The position numbers and the translations under genes are program-made. Source: Symmetrospora coprosmae (Eukaryota; Basidiomycota; Cystobasidiomycetes; Symmetrosporaceae). Taken from it: a stretch of 64,000 nucleotides of DNA. This document shows positions 1,006-64,000 of this stretch, in pieces. The DNA is taken from the NCBI GenBank assembly GCA_008802785.1, contig VUYT01000006.1, positions 62,001 to 126,000 of the forward strand, in the 5' to 3' direction. The notes under the pieces are model-generated. The model made no database searches. It worked only from the letters and a program-made list of their open reading frames with translations, and was not told the DNA's origin. How positions within the stretch are numbered: position 1 is the first letter of the stretch; each line of letters opens with the position of its first letter.

Positions 1006-2121
1006 GGCGGACGTCTCCCTCGGATGGGTCGGAGAAACGACAACAGCATCGCCCAAGTCGCAGCCGGCTGGCCTGGAGCACGCCCTCTGCGGAGGACGAG
1101 GCGGGACCCGTTCAGCCCTGCTCGCGCCGGCGGGCTGAGGTCGACGCAGGACGAGCTGCGATTGAGCGTCTCTGCTATGCTGGTGACATATCACGTCCTG
1201 CCCGTCCGCTCCTCCCCCGTCCAGCCAACGACTGCGCTGTCGCTTGCGGGCCAGCAGCAGGCTGGATCACGAGGCGGCCTAAGGTACCTTCACGATGAAC
1301 AGCGGTCGTTGCGCCTTAGCTCCGTACATGAGCAACGCTGAGATCGTGCGTTGAGTCTGCATGGAGTCTGCATGGCAGATCTCAAGCACCCGAGGCGCGC
1401 CTGTGACGGTCGGGCGTTGGCAGGTACGAAGGATCGTCGAGTGCAGGAGGTAGGGTACGATCAGTACCATGGAGGCGACAAGCCCTTGCTACTACTGCTG
1501 TACCGTACTGGACCGTGTCGGAGACGGACGCTGTGCAGTGCAGAGATTGTCGAGAGGGAAGGCGGGACGAGGCAACGGCGGCTGGGGTGTCAGCGAGCGT
1601 CCTTCACCTGGTTGTGCTTCCTGCGTGCCTCCAGCTGAGCCTAACTAGCGGCTTCAGCGGCAAGGCCGGCTCTCCCTGATTGCCGCCAAAGCGAAAGCGG
1701 GCAAGCTCAAAGCAGGCCCATCTCGAAACAGACTTGGCCATCTTGAACAGCAGGGTCTCCTTCACTCTACTCCGATATAACACTCCTCCCGCCCGCCAGC
1801 TAACGAGACAGGGAGGCGGAGGCAGCTGTGGGCCACCGGAATTGCGACAACTGCACGCGGACGCGGAGTGCGGGACGAACAAGTCGCGCCCCCACGTGCA
1901 GCCTCTCTCGCTACGAGGAGCAGCCACGACCCTCGACCGCTAGCCCAAGTAAACAGCACCAAGCAGCTCAGTCCCGGTCTTCCTTGGCTTTCTGCCATCC
2001 CGTCTTCTTCTCCCCACGTTGCGGATCCCCATCAACACCTATCGTTGATTGTGCCTTGCGCCTCAGCCCTTCCCTCCTTGCTCGCCTCCTCCTCCTCTCC
2101 GCCCCTCTAGTCGGACAGCCC
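1006..2121. other. shared upstream region of divergent transporter and amidohydrolase genes
   Basis: About 1.1 kb lies between the two divergent start codons. Open frames here are short, unspliced-looking and match no family. The stretch before the amidohydrolase start (about 1980-2110) is CT-rich, as fungal leaders often are. A shared promoter is inferred from geometry alone. Confidence 0.5.
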
Positions 2122-51680: not shown

Positions 51681-52096
51681 TCAGCGCCGGAGGTACACCT
51701 CTTTGAGCGCGATCCTGACCCTCTGCCACTTTGTAAGGCTGATCCTGCGTCCATCGTACTCCTCATTCCCACTCCCGTCCGCCTTGAATGCGACTTTGCG
51801 GATCTCGTCTCCAATGCCAATGTACACCTGCGTAGCGGCGCGGATCCCCGGTCTGCAGCTGCGCGGCAGCTTCCGGATCGCAGCTGCGGTCCCCGCTTTG
51901 TGCGCCTCGGCGAGGGCGAGGAGCTGCCGCACGTACACGTGGTACCGGAACTCGGTCGGCGTCGGGAAGCGCTGCCCGTGCGCCGCCTGGACGAGGTTCG
52001 CGTAGTCTGCCATGCGCGCGCGCTCCTCAATCCCTTCCTCGCTGAGCTTGCCCTTTTCAGCCGCCGGCGACTTGATTGCCTCTTCGGCTTTTTCGC

Positions 52097-52137
<41 letters not shown>

Positions 52138-52168
52138 ATGATCGTCGCCCCTGCTACTGCTGCTGTCT

Positions 52169-52202
<34 letters not shown>

Positions 52203-53962
52203 GCGCTTGAACCAGTCCTGCGGTATGTAGATGCGGCCCTTTGTCGCGTCTTCGCGTATATCGCGCGCAATGTTGGTGATCTGCAGCGCGACGCCCATGC
52301 TCGCAGCCTTGGCGAGGACCTCCTTGCGCTCGCGCGGGTCGTTCTGCACGGTCCCAGAGTGCGGCTCGTTGGCCCACATGGCCCACACGCACATCTCTGC
52401 AACACTGCTCGCGACGAGGCGCGAGTACTCTACGAGGTCCTCCTGCGTCACAATCGGGCTGCCGCGCAGGTCCCACTCGTACCCCGCAATCAGGTCGTCG
52501 AACGGGTATCGCGGTATGCGCGTGCAGATGGTCGAGACGAGGAAGAAGGCCGACTGGGCGTCCTTGGGGACGCGCTTGTGCAGGAACGCCGACACGTCGA
52601 AAGTGGACGGGATGGGCGCGAACGGCGGGGTGTACGCTGCGGCTTCCGAGGAGGACGCGGGCGTCGACGGGTACAGCAGGTCGAGGTACTCCTTGCTCAT
52701 GTCGATCAAGCGGCGCGCTTCCTCCTGCGTGGCCGACTCATCGCAGAAGTCGTCGAGCACCCGGCAGAAGGCGTACAGAATGACGAGGTCGCGCCGCACG
52801 GCTGATGGAAAGATGTAAGATGCCGTGTGGAAGGAGCGGGAGTGCACCGCCAGGACTTTTTGCGTCTCTTCGAACGCTGGTATCCGCGCGCGGTACGAGG
52901 CTGGAAGGCGGTCGAGGCGGAGGAGGAGCGATTTGACGAGGAACGTGATGAACTCGTACGGCGTCAGCTGGGACGGCTGGACGGCCTGCGGGCGTTTCGT
53001 CGAGTCGGCAGCAAGGAGGTCGCCAAACACGTCAATCACGGCGTAGGACCGGTCAAAGGCGTTCATGCCGCACACGAGGAGCGTGTTGGTGACGAGGAAG
53101 AAGACGGCCTCCTCGAGCGGGAGGTCGGGCACGACGAAAATGCCGGTGCTCGTGCGCTCGGTGATGTGCCATGTCCCTGCGCGCAGGGCGATCGTGTCGA
53201 CGGCGCAGAGGTACACGGTCGGGATGAGGATGGAGAGCAGGCTCGTCTTCCACCGCGAGAGAAAGTGGTCCCCTGCGATGCCCCACAGGAAAGTCATGAT
53301 GGGTGTGATCCACCAGGCGATGCAGCCGAGGTAGAAGCCATGCGTCTCTGGGATGGCGTACTTCCACCCGGTCACGCAGAGGGCCGGGAGCACGGCCAGC
53401 GGTCCCCAGCGCAGGACTTTGCGGATGTACGAGGAGGTCGAGACTGATGCGTCGCTGCGCGTGTCCTTCATCAAGTGCTGCGACGGCGTGTCAAACATGC
53501 CGAGCAGGAGGAAGAGCTGGGCCGTGAAGGTGGACTGGATCATGAAGAAGAAGACCTCCTCGATGGGTACTTTTTTGAGCGTGTACATGACGGCCCACTA
53601 CGAGGGAGGGGGGCCAGGCTGTTAGCTGGAGCAGGGAGAGGCCGATCATCAGTACAGAGACAACCCACCTCTGGGTAGGTCCAGGCATGGTTGTGGATGA
53701 TGTAGCTGTCCCAGGGGAACGTGTAGAGGGTGGCAATCGAGACATGGAACACGATGGTGAAGAGGTTCCTTTTGCTGAGGAGCGGGTTGAGGAAGAAGGA
53801 TGCGACAGTGGTAGCAGGGATTGTGTAGAGGATGTGTCTGGGATCAAGGTAGGATGGGGTTTCAGCATGACCTCAGCCTCAGCCCGGCTGCCGGCCGAGG
53901 AGGGATAGGCAGGCAGGCAGGGATCTTCCGCAGACCCACATCCTCCAGTACGTCAGCAACAT
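51681..53962 (-). CDS. crtYB: bifunctional lycopene cyclase / phytoene synthase
   Basis: Carotenoid enzyme: the N-terminal heterodimer-type lycopene cyclase is membrane-bound and the C-terminal domain condenses two geranylgeranyl diphosphates to phytoene. Exon 1 is short: ATG at 53962, MLLTYWR, with a GTGGGT donor; the frame resumes HILYTIPATTVASFFLNPL. Each cyclase repeat shows its signature: FPWDSYIIHNHAWTYPE, PIEEVFFFMIQS, then AGTWHITERTSTGIFV and LPLEEAVFFLVTN. The synthase half starts with TQKVLAVHSRSFHTASYIFP and has RRDLVILYAFCRVLDDFCDE (first Asp-rich motif), then VALQITNIARDIREDATKGR (second), RIYIPQDWF and a C-terminal RVRIALKEVYLRR. Length about 710 residues. Between DWF and the next helix is a poly-Thr then poly-Ser insert. 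Fungal counterparts are Ustilago Car2 and Neurospora AL-2. Confidence 0.94.
52098..52203 (-). repeat. trinucleotide repeats coding poly-Ser and poly-Thr inside phytoene synthase
   Basis: Plus-strand (CTG)n at about 52098-52130 and (GTC)n at about 52168-52203 are read on the minus strand as Ser and Thr runs. They sit inside the last exon of the carotenoid gene and keep its frame. Confidence 0.9.
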
Positions 53963-54447
53963 GGCTGGCTGGCTGCTATGTGCCCGTGAACGACGACGAC
54001 GACCTTCCTAAGGGAGTCGCCTGCTATGCTCGTCCCTTCCTTTCTCCTGCCTTGCTGCTCGCTCCCTCGCTCCTTCTCCCACGTGTATTTCACGCTCCTC
54101 CCCCCGAGCAGCTTCGCTCAAATCGCCAGGGATCGCAGCGTCTTCTCTGTATTCTGAAGGGATGAACAGATTGAGCTAGACTGTGCGATTCCGTGCGTAT
54201 ATTGCGATCCTCTGTAGCTGCTCTGCTGCCTGCTGCGTGTCGAGGGTGAGAGGGTGATGGAGGGTGAGGCGGAGGCAGGGAGGAGCAAGAGCAAGCTCCT
54301 CGCCGAAGGAGCAGCCTGGCCTGGCCGAAGGAGGACGCAGAGGAGGAGGACACCCGACAGACCGAGAAAGCCTGCGGGGAGCGGACTTTATCACCGGAAC
54401 CACTCAACCGATACAGTGCATCTCACATCAGAGCAGCGCCCCATAAG
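53963..54447. other. shared upstream region of the carotenoid gene and bL36m gene
   Basis: 485 bp between the divergent starts. GC- and CT-rich, with no recognised gene or clear TATA box. Confidence 0.45.
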
Positions 54448-54873
54448 ATGGCCCCCTCCCTCCGCACACTGTCGCTCGCTGCATCCAGGCGCACATCCTC
54501 ATTCGCGGTCCCTGCTCTCACGGCGCAGTCACGCCCTCTGTCGACCTTCTTCAACAAGGCCCGCCCGACAGTGACAAGCTGCTGCTCCGAGCATCACAGC
54601 TGCACCCACACTGGACACGTCCATGCACCATCATCATCACCGCTGCTAATGATGCAAGGGCAGGAACGCGGGATGAAGGTCCGCTCGTCCGTAAAGCTCT
54701 TTTGCGATGGGTGCAAGACGGTCCGCAGGAAAGGGTACCTCTATGTCATCTGCAGCAAGGATCCAAAGCACAAGCAGGTGTGTGCGCACATACAGGCTTT
54801 TGCAGGGTTGAGTGCACATCAGCTGATGCTGACTCTTCCGCCTGGGCCCATCCTCTGACAGCGTCAAGGATGA
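54448..54873 (+). CDS. RTC6: mitochondrial large-subunit ribosomal protein bL36m
   Basis: Small zinc-ribbon protein of the mitochondrial ribosome. Exon 1 (54448-54777) has a Ser/Arg-rich presequence, [20 protein letters not shown], and a His-rich linker, then the bL36 domain: [20 protein letters not shown] and [17 protein letters not shown], with the Cys-x-x-Cys, Cys and His zinc ligands. The universal C-terminus of bL36 is KHKQRQG. It is completed only if an 84-nt intron (donor GTGTGT at 54778, acceptor CTGACAG ending 54861) joins to a 12-nt last exon CGTCAAGGATGA (54862-54873). The unspliced frame would instead add 27 unrelated residues. The mature part starts at MKVR. Confidence 0.9.
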
Positions 54874-57570: not shown

Positions 57571-58693
57571 CGTCGCTCTGGCGATGCTGCTGGCTCTGCC
57601 GTATAAGGAGTGTGGTATTAAGGACTGTGATAGCGCTTAGATGGAGCGAAGGCAGGCCGTTGATTGCGCAGAATCAGTTCGGCGGGCTGCTCAGCTCGCA
57701 CGCGCTTCGCCGCCAGCAAGGATCGCGGCAACCAGCATTCGAGGGCAGCAGAGGCGCCGAAGGCTGGGCGGCTTCCCGTCCGTATATCTTGGACTGATGT
57801 GCAAACGGTCATCAGCAAGGAGATGCACGGCCGTTCTTTTGAAGACGGGGGGTGCATTTCGGTCCATTCCGACGCGGTCACCCGCTGATCTTTTGCTCGG
57901 GGAGCGCTTGCGCGCGATAGATGTTGACACTGCTGGCAACGCGCTGAACAGAAAGGAAACCCAGAAGGAACGGCTGCGCTGTTACAAAAAGCTGGGGCCA
58001 TCAGTCTGGGTGGAAAGGTCGACCCGCAACAAAAGAAGTCGAGCGGCAAGAGCATCGAAGGCATGTCCGACAGAAGGCGATCGAGGTCGCATCGATGGGC
58101 CGCCCGGCCAGGCTCGGCAAATTGACGAGGATCAGCATGCAGAGGAGCTCCGACACGCGAGTGCTGTCCGTCGTCCTGTTGTTGTGGTTCGAGGGAAGCG
58201 GAATGCCATGCGCGAGCGGCAGATGTGCCGGGAGCGTCACGGCGGGATGTGCCTCAGGTCAAGCTGAGCAGCGCTGGCGCCTCGGGCGGTGAACGCGCAT
58301 TAGCTCGAGCACAGCAGCGCAGCGCAAGTCACGGTCGTTGCGCAGAGACTGCTGCGCGTCATGCCTATGCTTCGTCCCGGCTTGTCTGGACGGACAAAGG
58401 CAAACCTTCTGGTCAGTCGAACGCGCTGCGATCAGCTCGCGCAACGGGCGGAGGCGTCTGCACAATGGAGCAAATGGACAGCAAAGTGGGACATCGAGAG
58501 CACCAGAGTACAGAGCGACCACCCCTCTTCGTTGCTCTGCCATCTGTACATAGGTACACAGGACCCGTTGTCCACGTCTTTTTGAGCGCACACACATACA
58601 CGCAGACCAATGCTTAGCACACATATGCGCCAACAGACACGCCAAACCGAGTTCAGTCTGTGCCGATTAGTCGGCAAGGCCAAGGCATCTCGA
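57571..58693. other. intergenic region between tandem minus-strand genes
   Basis: About 1.1 kb between the secreted-protein start and the RPB1 stop. It must hold the promoter of the secreted protein and the 3' UTR of RPB1. Frames here are short and featureless. Confidence 0.45.
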
Positions 58694-61600
58694 CTACTTG
58701 TTGGGCTTCCAGCTTGGCGCGGCGGAGTACCCGTTAGGGCTTCTCGCGCCTGCGTTGTAAGCCGGAGCTGAAAAGGTAGCCGATAGGACATCAGCGCCCG
58801 CTCGCATTAAGGATGCGATTGCGACGACTCACATCTCGCCGAGTAGTTGGTCGAGTACGCAGGCGATGTGCCAGCGGGCTGCGGCACTGCACCGGCGTCA
58901 TTTGGTGTGTAAGCAGGCGAGGTAGGAGTGTAAGCGGGCGACGTGGGCGTGAATGCTGGCGATGAAGGGCTGAATGCTGGTGAGGCCGGGCTGTATTGCG
59001 GCGATGTAGGTGAATAGGATGGGGCTGCAAGATTGTGGGAAGAGGCGGAAAATGTCAGCAAAGCAAAAGAGTGTGAACAAGACGGCAGAGACAACTCACA
59101 AGTGGGAGACATCCGTGGGGATGTGGGCGAGTATGCTGGACTTGCCGGGCTGAAGCGCGGCGACGCCGGTGAGAACGCTGGAGAGGATGGCGAGAACCGT
59201 GGCGAGCTCGGCGAGAAGGCTGGACTAGCTGGCGAGAACCTCGGTGAAGACGGACTGAACGCAGGCGACGACGGACTGAATGCTGGCGAGCTTGGCGAGA
59301 AGGAAGGCGAGGTAGGAGAGTAGCTGTTCGGGCTTGTAGGGGAAGCGCCAAAGGTGAGCCGGGGCGAGGTAGGCGAGTACTGCGCGTTGGCTCTGTTCCC
59401 GGCGAATGGCGACGAGACATAGCCTGGACTCGTTGGCTGGTAGAAGGCCGGCGACGACGGCGAGAAGCCAGGCGAGGCAGGCGAGAACCCTCCAGGCGAC
59501 ATGCCGTAGCCGGGACTTGCACCTCCACGTGGTGTGTAGGGCGATGCCCCATAACCGCCATACATGGCTCCCATACCCTCGTCTCCTCCAGCCTGTACGA
59601 TGGGCGAGAAGACGGCGTTGATAGCCAGGTTGTCGTAGTTGGCACCACCTGGCGTCCTGCCGCCTGCACCATAGTCTGCCTCTGCATAAGGCGTCATGCC
59701 ACCACCCGGTGTCATTGACCCGTCCTGCCCAAAGATGACACCCTGAGCTGGCAGACGGTGGTCCACGACGACATCCTTGAGCATCTCGAGGTCGAGCGCA
59801 ACGTCGAAGCATCCCGTGCCCATCGGCGCAAGCGCACCCAGCAGGACAGACTCCGCCACTCCTGTGCAGTGATCACGTTCTCCGATCGCAGCGGCCTCCA
59901 TGAGGATCTCGACGGTCTCCTCGAAGGAACAGCGCATCAAGGCACCCGTGTCGGCTCGGTTGATGCCGTGTCGGGTGATGGCCATAATAGAGCCGCGGTT
60001 CGTCATGACGTCGACCAGAAGAGACAAGTGTCGGTAGTTGACAGAGGAACCTCCGAACTCGATGACGTGCCTCATCTCGCGAAGCAGTGACTGCCGAGCA
60101 GCCTCGATACCAAGCACGTCCAGAACCTCAACACAGTTGTTCGAGGTCGTCCGCACAGGATCGACACCATCGACGGTGAGGACCTTCCGCAGGTTGGAGC
60201 CGTCCGTCTCGAGCACCCATTCGGGCACCTGCTGGAACTCGCCGCTCTCCCCGAGGACGCTCTTCTTGCGCTCGACGATGAAGGCTCGCACGATACCATC
60301 GACACCACCGAGGGTGATGCTGGACAGCATTGACGTCTCGAGCTGCTTGAGGAAGACATCCTCGGCAATCTCGGCATCCTCATCATCCTCCGCATCTTTG
60401 TCGTTCTCCTGCAGCGCTCGACACCGGATGACCAGCTTCTCCGCCAGATCTTCGGACGCAATGACGAAGAGGTCCTGCTCGAAGACTGCCTGGATCTTGC
60501 TCTGAACAAAGCCCATCTCGTAGGCCTTGTCGACCATCCGGCGCTTGTCTAGCTCAAAGCGGAGCAGCCATGGCGATTGACGGTGAATATTCTGCTCCAC
60601 TTCAGGATCCGGAATCTCGAAGAATGCGTGCACAAAGTCGCGATCATCCTCGATGAGGGTTGTCTCGACATTGGGATCGTAGAAGATCTCGGTCGAGGCC
60701 GTAATGGTTTTGAGCGTCGTGTGAGGCAGGATGGACTGGATGCGCTTAGCGGATGCGGCATCTCTGCTGTATTCGGGCTGGAGGAAGACTGTCAACGAGG
60801 GTGTCTTGATGTTGACAGCGACGTTGATGATCTCCTTCAGACGCGGCACACCGAGCGTGACGTTCTTGGAGGACACTCCCGCATAGTGGAACGTGTTGAG
60901 CGTCATCTGTGTCGCCGGCTCTCCGATCGACTGCGCAGCGATAACACCGCACATCTCTCCAGGATGCGCAACCGACTGGTTGAAGCGCGCTTCAATCTCG
61001 CCAAGAATCCACTCGAATGCCTCTCGGTTGAGATGGTGTTCTTGCAGGACTCGCTTGGTCGCGAAGTTGGACCGCAAAAGGATTCGGAAGAGCAGCGTAG
61101 CGTTCTCCTGTGCGGTGAGAGTGAGGCGGTCCTGCTTGCCCCGAACGACAATGAGTCGCTCCTGCAGCTCGCGGACGGCCTGGACAATGTCTGCAGGAGG
61201 CAAGTCGGAAGGCTTTGACGTGTCGATGTGGAAGATTTGCTGAGCGTTCTGGATGATACGCCGCAAATTGACGGGAAGAGCCTTTGAGGAATCGCCATTC
61301 GTGATGATGAAGCCTCGAAGCAGATCTCGGTCTTTGCAGAGCTGCTGGTATTCCTCGTCCAGCAGCGCCTGCACTTCGATCGTCCCCTCGTCGAGCCCAA
61401 CCTGCAGTGTCCCACTCTTGAAGGTCCAGTCTGGATCCATCATGTCCACGCGGTACGCCTGCTCGAACTTCTGGTGCGACATACGGACCGTCTCCAGCGT
61501 CTGGTTCTCGACAAAGGCTCCGTCCATGCCGTCTTCACCATAGATGAACTGCACGACATCGCCGAGCGAGTTTCGGACCGTTCCGTCGTAGGTGACAGTG

Positions 61601-64000
61601 ATGTCCTCGAGCGCCTTGACCAGACGACGCTGGATGTATCCAGTTTCGGCTGTCTTGACGGCTGTGTCTATCAGACCTTCTCGCCCTCCCATTGCGTGGA
61701 AGTAGAACTCCTGCGGCGTGAGTCCTCGAAGGTACGAGTTCTCGACGAAACCGCGCGACTCGGGCGAGTAGTCGTCCTTGGTGAAGTGCGGGAGCGTTCG
61801 GAACTTGAAGCCGAAAGGCACACGCTTTCCTTCCACAATCTGCTGTCCGACGACCGCTGACATTTGGGCGATGTTGATGAAGGAACCCTGCATAGTGGCG
61901 AGTGTGAGCAAGTTACATTGGTAGCTGATCATAAAGCAGTGTTAGCGGCAACTCACCTTGGACCCCGCGACTACCATCTGCTTGACGTTGTTTTCGTCCT
62001 TGAAGCTCTCCTGTGCGTTCTTTCCGGCATCGTCACGCGCAGTATTGAGAATGTTTGAGATCTTATTCTCGAAACTCTCGCGGATCGTCATTCCCGGCTC
62101 CGACTCGAGTCCGTCCATGTGAGCGAGCTCGGTGACTTCGCGAGTCTGGCGTCTCGCCTCGCTGACGATGTCGACAATGTACTGCTGCGTGCTCGGATCC
62201 GGCACGGTGTCTCCGATACCGATAGAGAAGCCGTTGTGCAGCAGCCAGTAATTGACGACCTTCTGGATGCCTCCGATAAAGTCTCGGCAGATTTCGGGCC
62301 CTCGCTCGCGGAAGATGATATGGATCACACCGCCAGAGGATGCTCCGACGACCTTCTTCTCGATCATGCCGTACAAGATCTGACCGTCCTCGATGAGAAC
62401 GCCGGAATCTTCAGCATGCAGAGGATCAGGCTTGGACTCTGCCCTGAAGTAGTTGACCCCCTTCGGAATGACCCTTCATTCGGTGACAGGCGGCCAGCTA
62501 CTGTCAGGACCGCTTCTTGTATGCGCTAGAGAATGCTGTAACTCACATCGAGAGCATCTGCTTGCCCGTCCACATCGGCTTGGGCTTGATGATGGCTGGT
62601 GGCGGCAGCACACCGTCCCATCCCGGCACCCAAAGCAGAAGGTTCTGGACAAAGTCGCGGTCCATGAAGGTGTCGCGCAGGGTGATCTTGCGTGTTCCGC
62701 AGAGCGTGTCCTGCACAATACCCATAACAGGCTAGCGGAAGTGGGGAAGAGCTCGTCAGCCTCGTAACAGCAGAAATGGTGCGCAGCGGTACTGACCTTG
62801 TTGGACTGCGGCGAGACAATCTGCCTGGGCACCCAAGCGATCTGAGAGAGCTCGGCTCTCGTCTCTTCGCTTTGTGGTACGTGCAAGTTCATCTCGTCGC
62901 CGTCGAAGCTGATGTTCGAGGCAAGCAGTAGGGCGGATGATGTTCAACATATGGTCACCCAAATCGGACAGGCAACATCATACTCACTCGGCGTTGTAGG
63001 GTGAGGTGACGGAAAGATTAAGTCGGAAGGTGGAGTAGGGCATGAGTTTGATTCGATGTGACACTGCAGAATTAGGGAAACATCAGCTCGTCTATTTGGC
63101 TGACGATGCTTGTTTCGATTGATACGCACTCATGGACATCTTGTGAAGAGAGGGCTGTCGGTTGAACAGCACGTAATCGCCGTCTTTGAGATGGCGCTCG
63201 ACGATCCAGCCGTATTGCAAGAAAGTGCTAGCCTGCTTGTTGTACCGCAGGTCGATGCGCTCTCCGTTGTCTCGGACGACGTAGCGTGCTCCCGGATACT
63301 CGTTCGGACCATTCCTGACGAGCTCCTGCAGGTACGTTATATTGTACGGCGTGACTCGCTCCGGGTACGTGAGGTTGCGCGCAATGCTGTACGGCACGCC
63401 GACCTGGTCAAGATCCAGATTCGGGTCTCCCGTGATGACGGTACGCGCCGAGAAGTCGACTCGCTTGCCCATCAGGTTCCCGCGCAGTCGGCCCTCCTTG
63501 CCCTTCAGACGTGCTCGGATAGACTTGACCGGGCGGCCGGATTTTTGCATCGATTGAGGCTGGCCGGGCAGGTCATTGTCCATGTATGTCGCAATGTGGT
63601 ACTGAAGGAGCGTCTCGAACTCGTCGACGACGTGCGCAGGCGCTCCTTCTTGCTCGAGTCTTCGAACATTTTGGTTGGCCTTGATAATGTCGGCAAGCTC
63701 TGCAGGAGGGTGGCGAGGTCAGCGGGTCCGCAGCCGGTACACGGCATGAACGCAGAAAGGGCCGCACTGTATGTCAAGTCGTCTTCGGAGCGCATTGCGC
63801 CTCCATCGACCGTGACGGATGGCCGGACAGCAGGTGGCGGAACGGGCAGGACGGTGAGAATCATCCATTCCGGACGAGCTTCTGCCATCGAGAGACCCAT
63901 TATCCGCAAGTCTTCGTCCGGAATCTTCTTCATGATCATGAGCGCAGCCGAAGCGGGTAGGTTCTTGCGGTCTTCGACCTTTGTGGCCTTCCCTCCCTGC
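58694..64000 (-). CDS. RPB1: RNA polymerase II largest subunit, C-terminal three-quarters, runs off the right edge
   Basis: Catalytic core subunit of RNA polymerase II. The window starts at [20 protein letters not shown]. Conserved blocks follow: [72 protein letters not shown]. The active-site motif NADFDGDEMN is rebuilt across an intron that splits the first Asp codon (GA|C, about 62905-62986). Then come the bridge-helix and trigger-loop regions: [60 protein letters not shown]. Later blocks are [20 protein letters not shown] and [20 protein letters not shown]. The C-terminal domain has about 20 heptads and ends in NYSAR joined by an intron to [24 protein letters not shown]. All catalytic residues visible here are present. 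Confidence 0.96.
58911..59490 (-). repeat. RPB1 CTD heptad repeat array
   Basis: Tandem 21-nt units encode about 20 heptads, interrupted by one in-phase intron inside SPT|SPS (about 59031-59100). By my count 12 heptads begin with Phe ([14 protein letters not shown] and so on), 7 with Tyr and 1 with Met; only one exact YSPTSPS is present. Pro3, Ser5 and Pro6 are nearly invariant; position 7 is mostly Ala or Arg. Confidence 0.85.

Follow-up and report, generated by a model that had tools for sequence, protein, structure and literature searches.

RPB1 gene and its splicing

The window, by which we mean the whole stretch of 64,000 nucleotides of Symmetrospora coprosmae DNA that was analyzed, contains at 58694-61941 on the minus strand the 3' part of an RPB1 gene, which runs on rightwards and whose C-terminal region is the CTD. 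According to Pfam, Rpb1 domains 4, 5, 6 and 7 and the C-terminal repeat lie together in a single frame of 1044 amino acids (58807-61941), which identifies the array as the CTD of Rpb1. The solved structure closest to this frame was 3h0g rpb1 (1201 bits), followed by 28jc (1172 bits) and 1i3q (1121 bits), which we take to be the S. pombe, human and S. cerevisiae proteins, respectively. A second, consensus-type Rpb1 was not found in the same genome (20.05 Mb, 77 contigs), in which the Rpb1 domain 7 family has one match and both matches to the CTD query fall into the gene described here. Two neighboring frames were also recorded. At 51681-53597 (minus strand) lies an open frame of 638 residues that contains a squalene/phytoene synthase domain (PF00494) and runs of Thr and Ser; its N-terminal part presumably resembles lycopene cyclase, as in the fused fungal carotenoid enzyme. 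The open frame at 54268-54858 (plus strand) looks like mitochondrial ribosomal protein L36.

Two introns, both positioned by eye from the genomic sequence, interrupt the 3' end of the gene. The spliced reading of the array is preferred since removal of the 75-nt intron restores the heptad register. Because the length of this intron is a multiple of three and it holds no in-frame stop, its retention would keep the frame, add 25 residues and split a heptad; as the normal product, such a retained form appears less plausible from the register of the repeats and was set aside. In the direction of transcription, the features are as follows, with all heptads given in the spliced frame.

59446-59487, minus strand: two N-terminal Phe heptads, the first two complete ones
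59302-59379, minus strand: Tyr heptads YSPTSPR and YSPTSPS, with the irregular ASPTSPN between them
59134-59301, minus strand: central block, eight Phe heptads in a row, FSP[S/A]SP[A/R]
58975-59133, minus strand: further CTD units, one of them split by the 75-nt intron
59025-59099, minus strand: CTD intron, 75 nt, GTGAGT...GCAG; excision restores the heptad register
58933-58974, minus strand: Phe heptads FSPSSPA and FTPTSPA
58912-58932, minus strand: last Tyr heptad, YTPTSPA
58768-58832, minus strand: last intron, 65 nt, GTGAGT...TCAG, leading to the stop codon that ends at 58694
58694-58767, minus strand: last exon, a non-repeat C-terminal tail followed by the stop

Composition of the heptad array

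In the spliced minus-strand frame, 20 CTD units match the pattern X-[ST]-P-X-S-P-X from 59487 down to 58912; conservation of Pro3, Ser5 and Pro6 in these units is built in because the search pattern demands them, and degenerate units, some of which hold additional Tyr, were left out of the count. Position 1 is occupied by Phe in 12 units, Tyr in six, and Met and Ala in one each, and is thus aromatic in 18 of the 20, so that the ring appears to be constrained and the hydroxyl not. Position 7 carries Ala in ten units, Arg in five, Ser in two, and Gly, Gln and Asn once each; Thr2 was found in two units, and the exact consensus YSPTSPS only once (59322-59302). These counts bear out the first-pass annotation of this DNA, which had proposed that about 12 of 20 heptads carry Phe, that a single heptad matches the consensus, and that Ser7 is mostly lost to Ala or Arg. 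Its further statement that Tyr is kept at both ends of the array holds for the last heptad, whereas Phe heads both of the complete heptads at the start and recurs in two units close to the end.

The tandem arrangement is far from chance expectation, as 19 units of the form [FYM][ST]PXSPX were observed, compared with a mean of 0.18 and a maximum of two in 1000 shuffles of the same 167 residues; the Ser2-Pro3 and Ser5-Pro6 frame of an Rpb1 CTD is thus present. With Tyr in six and Phe in 12 of the 20 units, Tyr is not the dominant residue at position 1, as it would be in a CTD of the consensus type. Instead, the array has the features of a divergent fungal CTD rich in Tyr1-to-Phe (Y1F) units, namely these frequencies of Phe and Tyr together with Ala7 in half of the units, conserved Ser-Pro motifs, and Tyr residues spaced seven apart in four pairs (834/841, 951/958, 979/986 and 1008/1015 of the translated piece), among which only 951/958 joins two complete heptads. 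When the order of the units was shuffled, the run of eight Phe units was mildly longer than expected (permutation fraction 0.039). At the DNA level, Tandem Repeats Finder reported six short arrays of 21- or 42-bp periods with 64-90% matches in 58000-60500. The Phe-rich CTD is confirmed as real and well preserved.

Association between positions 1 and 4

The residues at positions 1 and 4 appear to be linked. Thr4 occurs in seven of the eight non-Phe units compared with one of the 12 Phe units (Fisher p = 0.0008), and the association persists when Tyr units are taken alone (five of six; p = 0.004). Conversely, Ser4 is found in seven of the 12 Phe units and in none of the other eight (p = 0.015). 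Ala4 is not associated with position 1 (p = 0.60), and at position 7 no association was seen for Ala (p = 0.17), for Ser (p = 0.15) or for Arg (p = 1). These values come from eight scored residue-by-position rows, six of them informative, in one gene of one genome, and since the units of a single array are not independent, the linkage between Tyr1 and Thr4 is to be taken as a lead.

This linkage matters because of what has been described for the same two residues in yeasts. In S. pombe, mutants of Tyr1, Ser2 and Thr4 are all synthetically lethal with deletions of ppn1 and swd22, and the three residues are said to make a three-letter CTD word in 3' processing and termination (PMC7990198). Moreover, Rtt103 binds the CTD phosphorylated at Thr4, and its Asn65 bonds the Tyr1 hydroxyl (PMC5452035). 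The array may thus represent a partitioned code in which retention or loss of Tyr1 goes along with that of Thr4, with YSPT heptads carrying the termination word and FSP[S/A] heptads serving in Ser2/Ser5 signaling only. The skewed distribution of Thr4 and the two yeast systems speak for such a code, as do the nearly random synonymous codons of the units (see below), which argue against an origin of the linkage by recent copying. On the other hand, the 20 units are non-independent members of one array, and descent from two old types of unit could produce the same linkage, so that we regard a partitioned code as doubtful. Its broader form, which we consider distinctly unlikely, holds that the two classes of unit would be selected as wholes, the YSPT class with the Tyr1-Ser2-Thr4 termination word and the FSP[S/A] class blind to phosphorylation of Tyr1 and Thr4; the number and place of YSPT units, not the length of the array, would then set termination control, and all Phe-rich fungal CTDs would lose Tyr1 and Thr4 in concert.

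No statement on covariation of Tyr1 and Thr4 was found in the literature among the matches listed, and the available part of Palumbo et al. 2022 (PMC9451162) contains none. A 14-residue CTD piece of Hortaea werneckii given in that publication, SPAYQVTSPRFSPA, likewise has Thr in its Tyr unit, and Ala in its Phe unit; with two units only, this is an anecdote.

Similarity of the units at the DNA level

According to the first-pass annotation, the Phe units are nearly identical at the DNA level and might have arisen by repeat homogenization. The first claim is wrong, and the second is not supported by the nucleotide sequence. Pairs of units in the central block have a mean identity of 0.602 (maximum 0.810), adjacent central units a mean of 0.578 with a maximum of 76%, and exact repeats in 58900-59490 reach 14 bp at most. 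Within the central block, the same codon is used at shared residues with a frequency of 0.416 compared with 0.352 expected (s.d. 0.049), a value reached in 10.5% of simulations in which codons were drawn independently from the gene's own upstream usage; the sample is small (37 Ser and 22 Pro codons). Across all 12 Phe units codon sharing is 0.416 compared with 0.356 expected (5.6% of simulations), or 0.332 compared with 0.262 when only Ser and Pro sites are considered (4.3%), and the excess of sharing within Phe units over that between Phe and other units has a permutation fraction of 0.076. In the central block, Nei-Gojobori estimates give pS 0.63 and pN 0.31, and pS 0.55 and pN 0.21 at positions 1, 2, 3, 5 and 6, which hold identical residues; this latter pN is due to Ser TCN/AGY swaps alone. 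Near-identity of the units that includes synonymous sites, as in a recently homogenized repeat, was thus not observed.

Since the identity is about 60%, exact repeats do not exceed 14 bp and codon sharing is nearly random, both recent homogenization and assembly collapse are unlikely. Recent homogenization through repeat exchange was rejected on the codon evidence, with a slight excess of sharing among Phe units remaining. More generally, an artefact of the assembly or the gene model might be suspected because CTD arrays consist of repeats and the splice sites were assigned by eye; yet the exact repeats are short, the splice sites are canonical and their excision restores the heptad register, and the Rpb1 domains are continuous upstream, all of which make this explanation highly improbable.

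A related possibility is that all Phe units go back to a single one that was multiplied by unequal exchange under neutral drift, in which case they would be functionally meaningless. The slight codon excess among Phe units, the contiguity of eight of them and the relation of codon sharing to distance are compatible with this idea, as the fraction of shared synonymous codons is 0.435 for units four apart (62 comparisons) and lies between 0.24 and 0.31 at other distances. However, neighbors are barely more similar than distant units (0.307 at a distance of one and 0.252 at six or more), adjacent central units are only 58% identical, and 18 of the 20 units retain an aromatic residue at position 1, so that a purely neutral origin seems improbable to us. 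Older duplications or shared ancestry are possible because of the codon excess in Phe units and the higher sharing between units four apart; the latter (58912-59487, minus strand) may be a trace of an old four-unit duplication. As judged from the codons, the simplest reading would be that the units are old, that drift has nearly saturated their synonymous sites, and that selection at the protein level has held Phe and the Ser-Pro motifs in place.

CTD readers in the same genome

In CTD-interacting domains (CIDs), an Asp or Asn in helix 4 forms a bond with the Tyr1 hydroxyl; in Pcf11 this residue is Asp68 (PMC10317158). Matching changes in the Tyr1 pockets of reader proteins had been named in the first-pass annotation as something to look for; they were not seen in the domains that could be judged, since the helix-4 residue is neither lost nor changed in two of two. 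The Pcf11-like gene (L005, near position 724,700 of contig G000:C65) reads YLLDSICKNIGAPY and keeps the aspartate (YLLDSICKN). Its identity is based on a match with an E value of 6.6e-7, which contains a stop read as an intron, and on an exon piece of 40 residues; Pfam named no family for this piece, and the gene is also absent from the list returned by the CID family search. Lys60, Tyr65 and Asp68 of Pcf11 are invariant in a three-sequence alignment that is otherwise loose. The Seb1/Nrd1-like gene (L002) likewise keeps the aspartate (YVIDAVARE), exceeds the Pfam cut-off for the CID family, and is closest to Seb1 (E 1.4e-10), followed by Nrd1 (E 2.6e-9). Unchanged readers are indeed expected because six Tyr heptads remain in the array.

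Another CID family match, L001, is presumably the splicing factor SR140/U2SURP. Searches for an Rtt103-like reader did not yield one. When S. cerevisiae Rtt103 was searched against the genome with exons taken singly, only a weak match (E 0.245) that overlaps the L001 gene was obtained. A fragment of 8yf5 chain E, which we take to be S. pombe Rhn1, found no match in a search of the same kind, run with exons singly and without a positive control. We also noted that the L002 frame (1156-1752, plus strand) is about 29 residues longer than the solved Seb1 between its two matched CID parts, owing to either an insert or an unspliced intron, and that the RPB1 and Pcf11-like genes lie about 600 kb apart on a common contig.

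Proposed function of the Phe-rich CTD

Taken together, the array is probably, at a rough probability of 80%, an ordinary and functional fungal Rpb1 CTD of the known Tyr1-to-Phe type, as far as can be judged from its sequence. The Phe units would then be old and held by protein-level selection that requires the ring and not the hydroxyl. Phosphorylation of Ser2 and Ser5 and prolyl isomerization could take place along the whole array, which would most likely serve Ser2/Ser5-based recruitment, while functions of the Tyr hydroxyl, such as Tyr1 phosphorylation and the bond to CTD-interacting domains, would be restricted to the Tyr heptads, which lie outside the Phe block and at which Tyr1-dependent steps would take place. 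Five of these six Tyr heptads also have Thr4. The Phe block might act as an aromatic Ser-Pro spacer and condensation segment that is closed to the Tyr1 phosphate, and its contacts with CTD-interacting domains would lack the hydroxyl bond. Tyr1 phosphate abolishes binding of Rtt103 (PMC5452035) and, according to a proposal for S. cerevisiae, keeps Pcf11 and Rtt103 away (PMC6195540).

Such a functional partition of the CTD is inferred by analogy with these systems. It bears on the earlier suggestion of a divided, partly rewired code, which can be retained insofar as the Tyr1 hydroxyl is absent from most units, few units still have Ser7, and the Tyr heptads stand apart from a solid Phe block; matching changes in the reader pockets are not supported, as the aspartate is kept in both of the domains that could be judged. 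The linkage of Tyr1 and Thr4 gives the division of the array some substance. For relatives with a comparable CTD, prokaryotic and viral contig collections were scanned and yielded none; nine pattern matches occurred in the first, none of which was confirmed by tblastn. Given the content of these collections, this negative result carries little weight.

It is also possible, by analogy with polar fungi, that units with Phe, Ala and Arg fit the phase-separation behavior of the CTD to the conditions in which the organism lives, an explanation that we hold tentatively and consider rather unlikely. Palumbo et al. 2022 propose such tuning for positions 1, 4 and 7, and in their assays, under the conditions used, mixed CTDs gave droplets and an all-Phe yeast CTD showed no phase separation (PMC9451162). 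In the present array, the five Arg7 units could in addition pair with aromatic rings.

Comparison with other CTDs

Like the CTDs of S. cerevisiae, S. pombe, K. phaffii and mammals, the array stands at the end of Rpb1 and keeps the frame of Ser2-Pro3 and Ser5-Pro6. The CTD consensus of K. phaffii carries Tyr, and the five structure chains that were compared, presumably mammalian, carry Tyr in regular heptads, whereas Tyr is a minority here; yeast chains were matched as well. The consensus of S. cerevisiae and S. pombe has Tyr as well (PMC9451162), and a residue other than Tyr at position 1 has been called relatively rare in nature, with Drosophila having three Phe units in about 45 (PMC6715403). 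CTDs from 38 eukaryotes including fungi have been surveyed in an article that does not use the word phenylalanine in the accessible part of its text (PMC4362643), and degenerate fungal CTDs were reported to accompany multicellular complexity (PMC4215175). A literature search for the exact strings FSPTSP, FSPSSP and FSPASP yielded, as CTD matches, a Plasmodium Rpb1 unit and a human construct. The natural unit FSPTSPA of Plasmodium falciparum Rpb1 is phosphorylated at its second residue; it is a single Phe unit beside Tyr units, and the excerpt at hand describes no block (PMC9426563), in contrast to the block of eight found here.

The closest counterparts are the fungal CTDs analyzed by Palumbo et al. 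2022 (PMC9451162), which vary at positions 1, 4 and 7 while their Ser-Pro motifs are essentially invariant, and among which Y1F and S7A are by far the most prevalent substitutions. Units with Y1F were frequent in species of Agaricomycetes, Sordariomycetes and Eurotiomycetes, and, in the available part of that article, no polar CTD was wholly substituted at Tyr1. Compared by description, the present CTD shares with these the conserved Ser-Pro motifs and the incomplete loss of Tyr, and it resembles those of Dioszegia cryoxerica, Naganishia vishniacii and others in having Phe as the main substitution at position 1, Ala as the main substitution at position 7, and its changes at positions 1, 4 and 7 (PMC9451162). 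Its length of about 24 heptads (167 residues from the first to the last unit) compares with 24-28 in the published fungi (PMC9451162). All seven polar or halophile CTDs complemented S. cerevisiae at 30 C (52-89%), while the same seven gave less or no complementation at 18 C (0-61%; PMC9451162). Since Y1F has already been reported as frequent in fungi (PMC9451162), the composition described here is less surprising than it might seem, and the RPB1 CTD is mainly a clear new example of the published Phe-rich kind, to which the linkage of Tyr1 and Thr4 is the added element. This linkage also makes a simple prediction that can be checked across fungal genomes.

Similar substitutions have been engineered in several systems with different outcomes. 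An all-Phe CTD is lethal in S. cerevisiae (PMC9451162), while S. pombe cells in which Phe replaces Tyr in all consensus heptads do well at 30 C and are slow-growing at 20 C (PMC7990198). In vitro, the kcat/Km of TFIIH was lower by a factor of nearly ten with Phe1 in a yeast CTD, and that of Erk2 was 2.5-fold higher (PMC6715403). In chicken cells an all-Phe CTD was inviable, and the 20F+6Y variant was stable and likewise inviable (PMC4042873). In human cells, mutation of Tyr1 in three quarters of the heptads (YFFF) led to pervasive termination failure, and this CTD did not rescue viability (PMC11754735). Having few Tyr is thus not harmless everywhere, given the inviable chicken 20F+6Y and the unrescued human mutant. 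The present array resembles the engineered Y1F, 20F+6Y and YFFF CTDs in the loss of the Tyr1 hydroxyl, and 20F+6Y also in its six Tyr heptads; unlike the engineered mutants it is a natural mix that carries changes at Thr4 and Ser7 as well and has additional Tyr in degenerate units. With 12 Phe and six Tyr heptads, a natural CTD is close in make-up to the 20F+6Y CTD that is inviable in chicken cells, and such a Phe-rich CTD offers a natural substrate for asking where the Tyr1 hydroxyl is needed.
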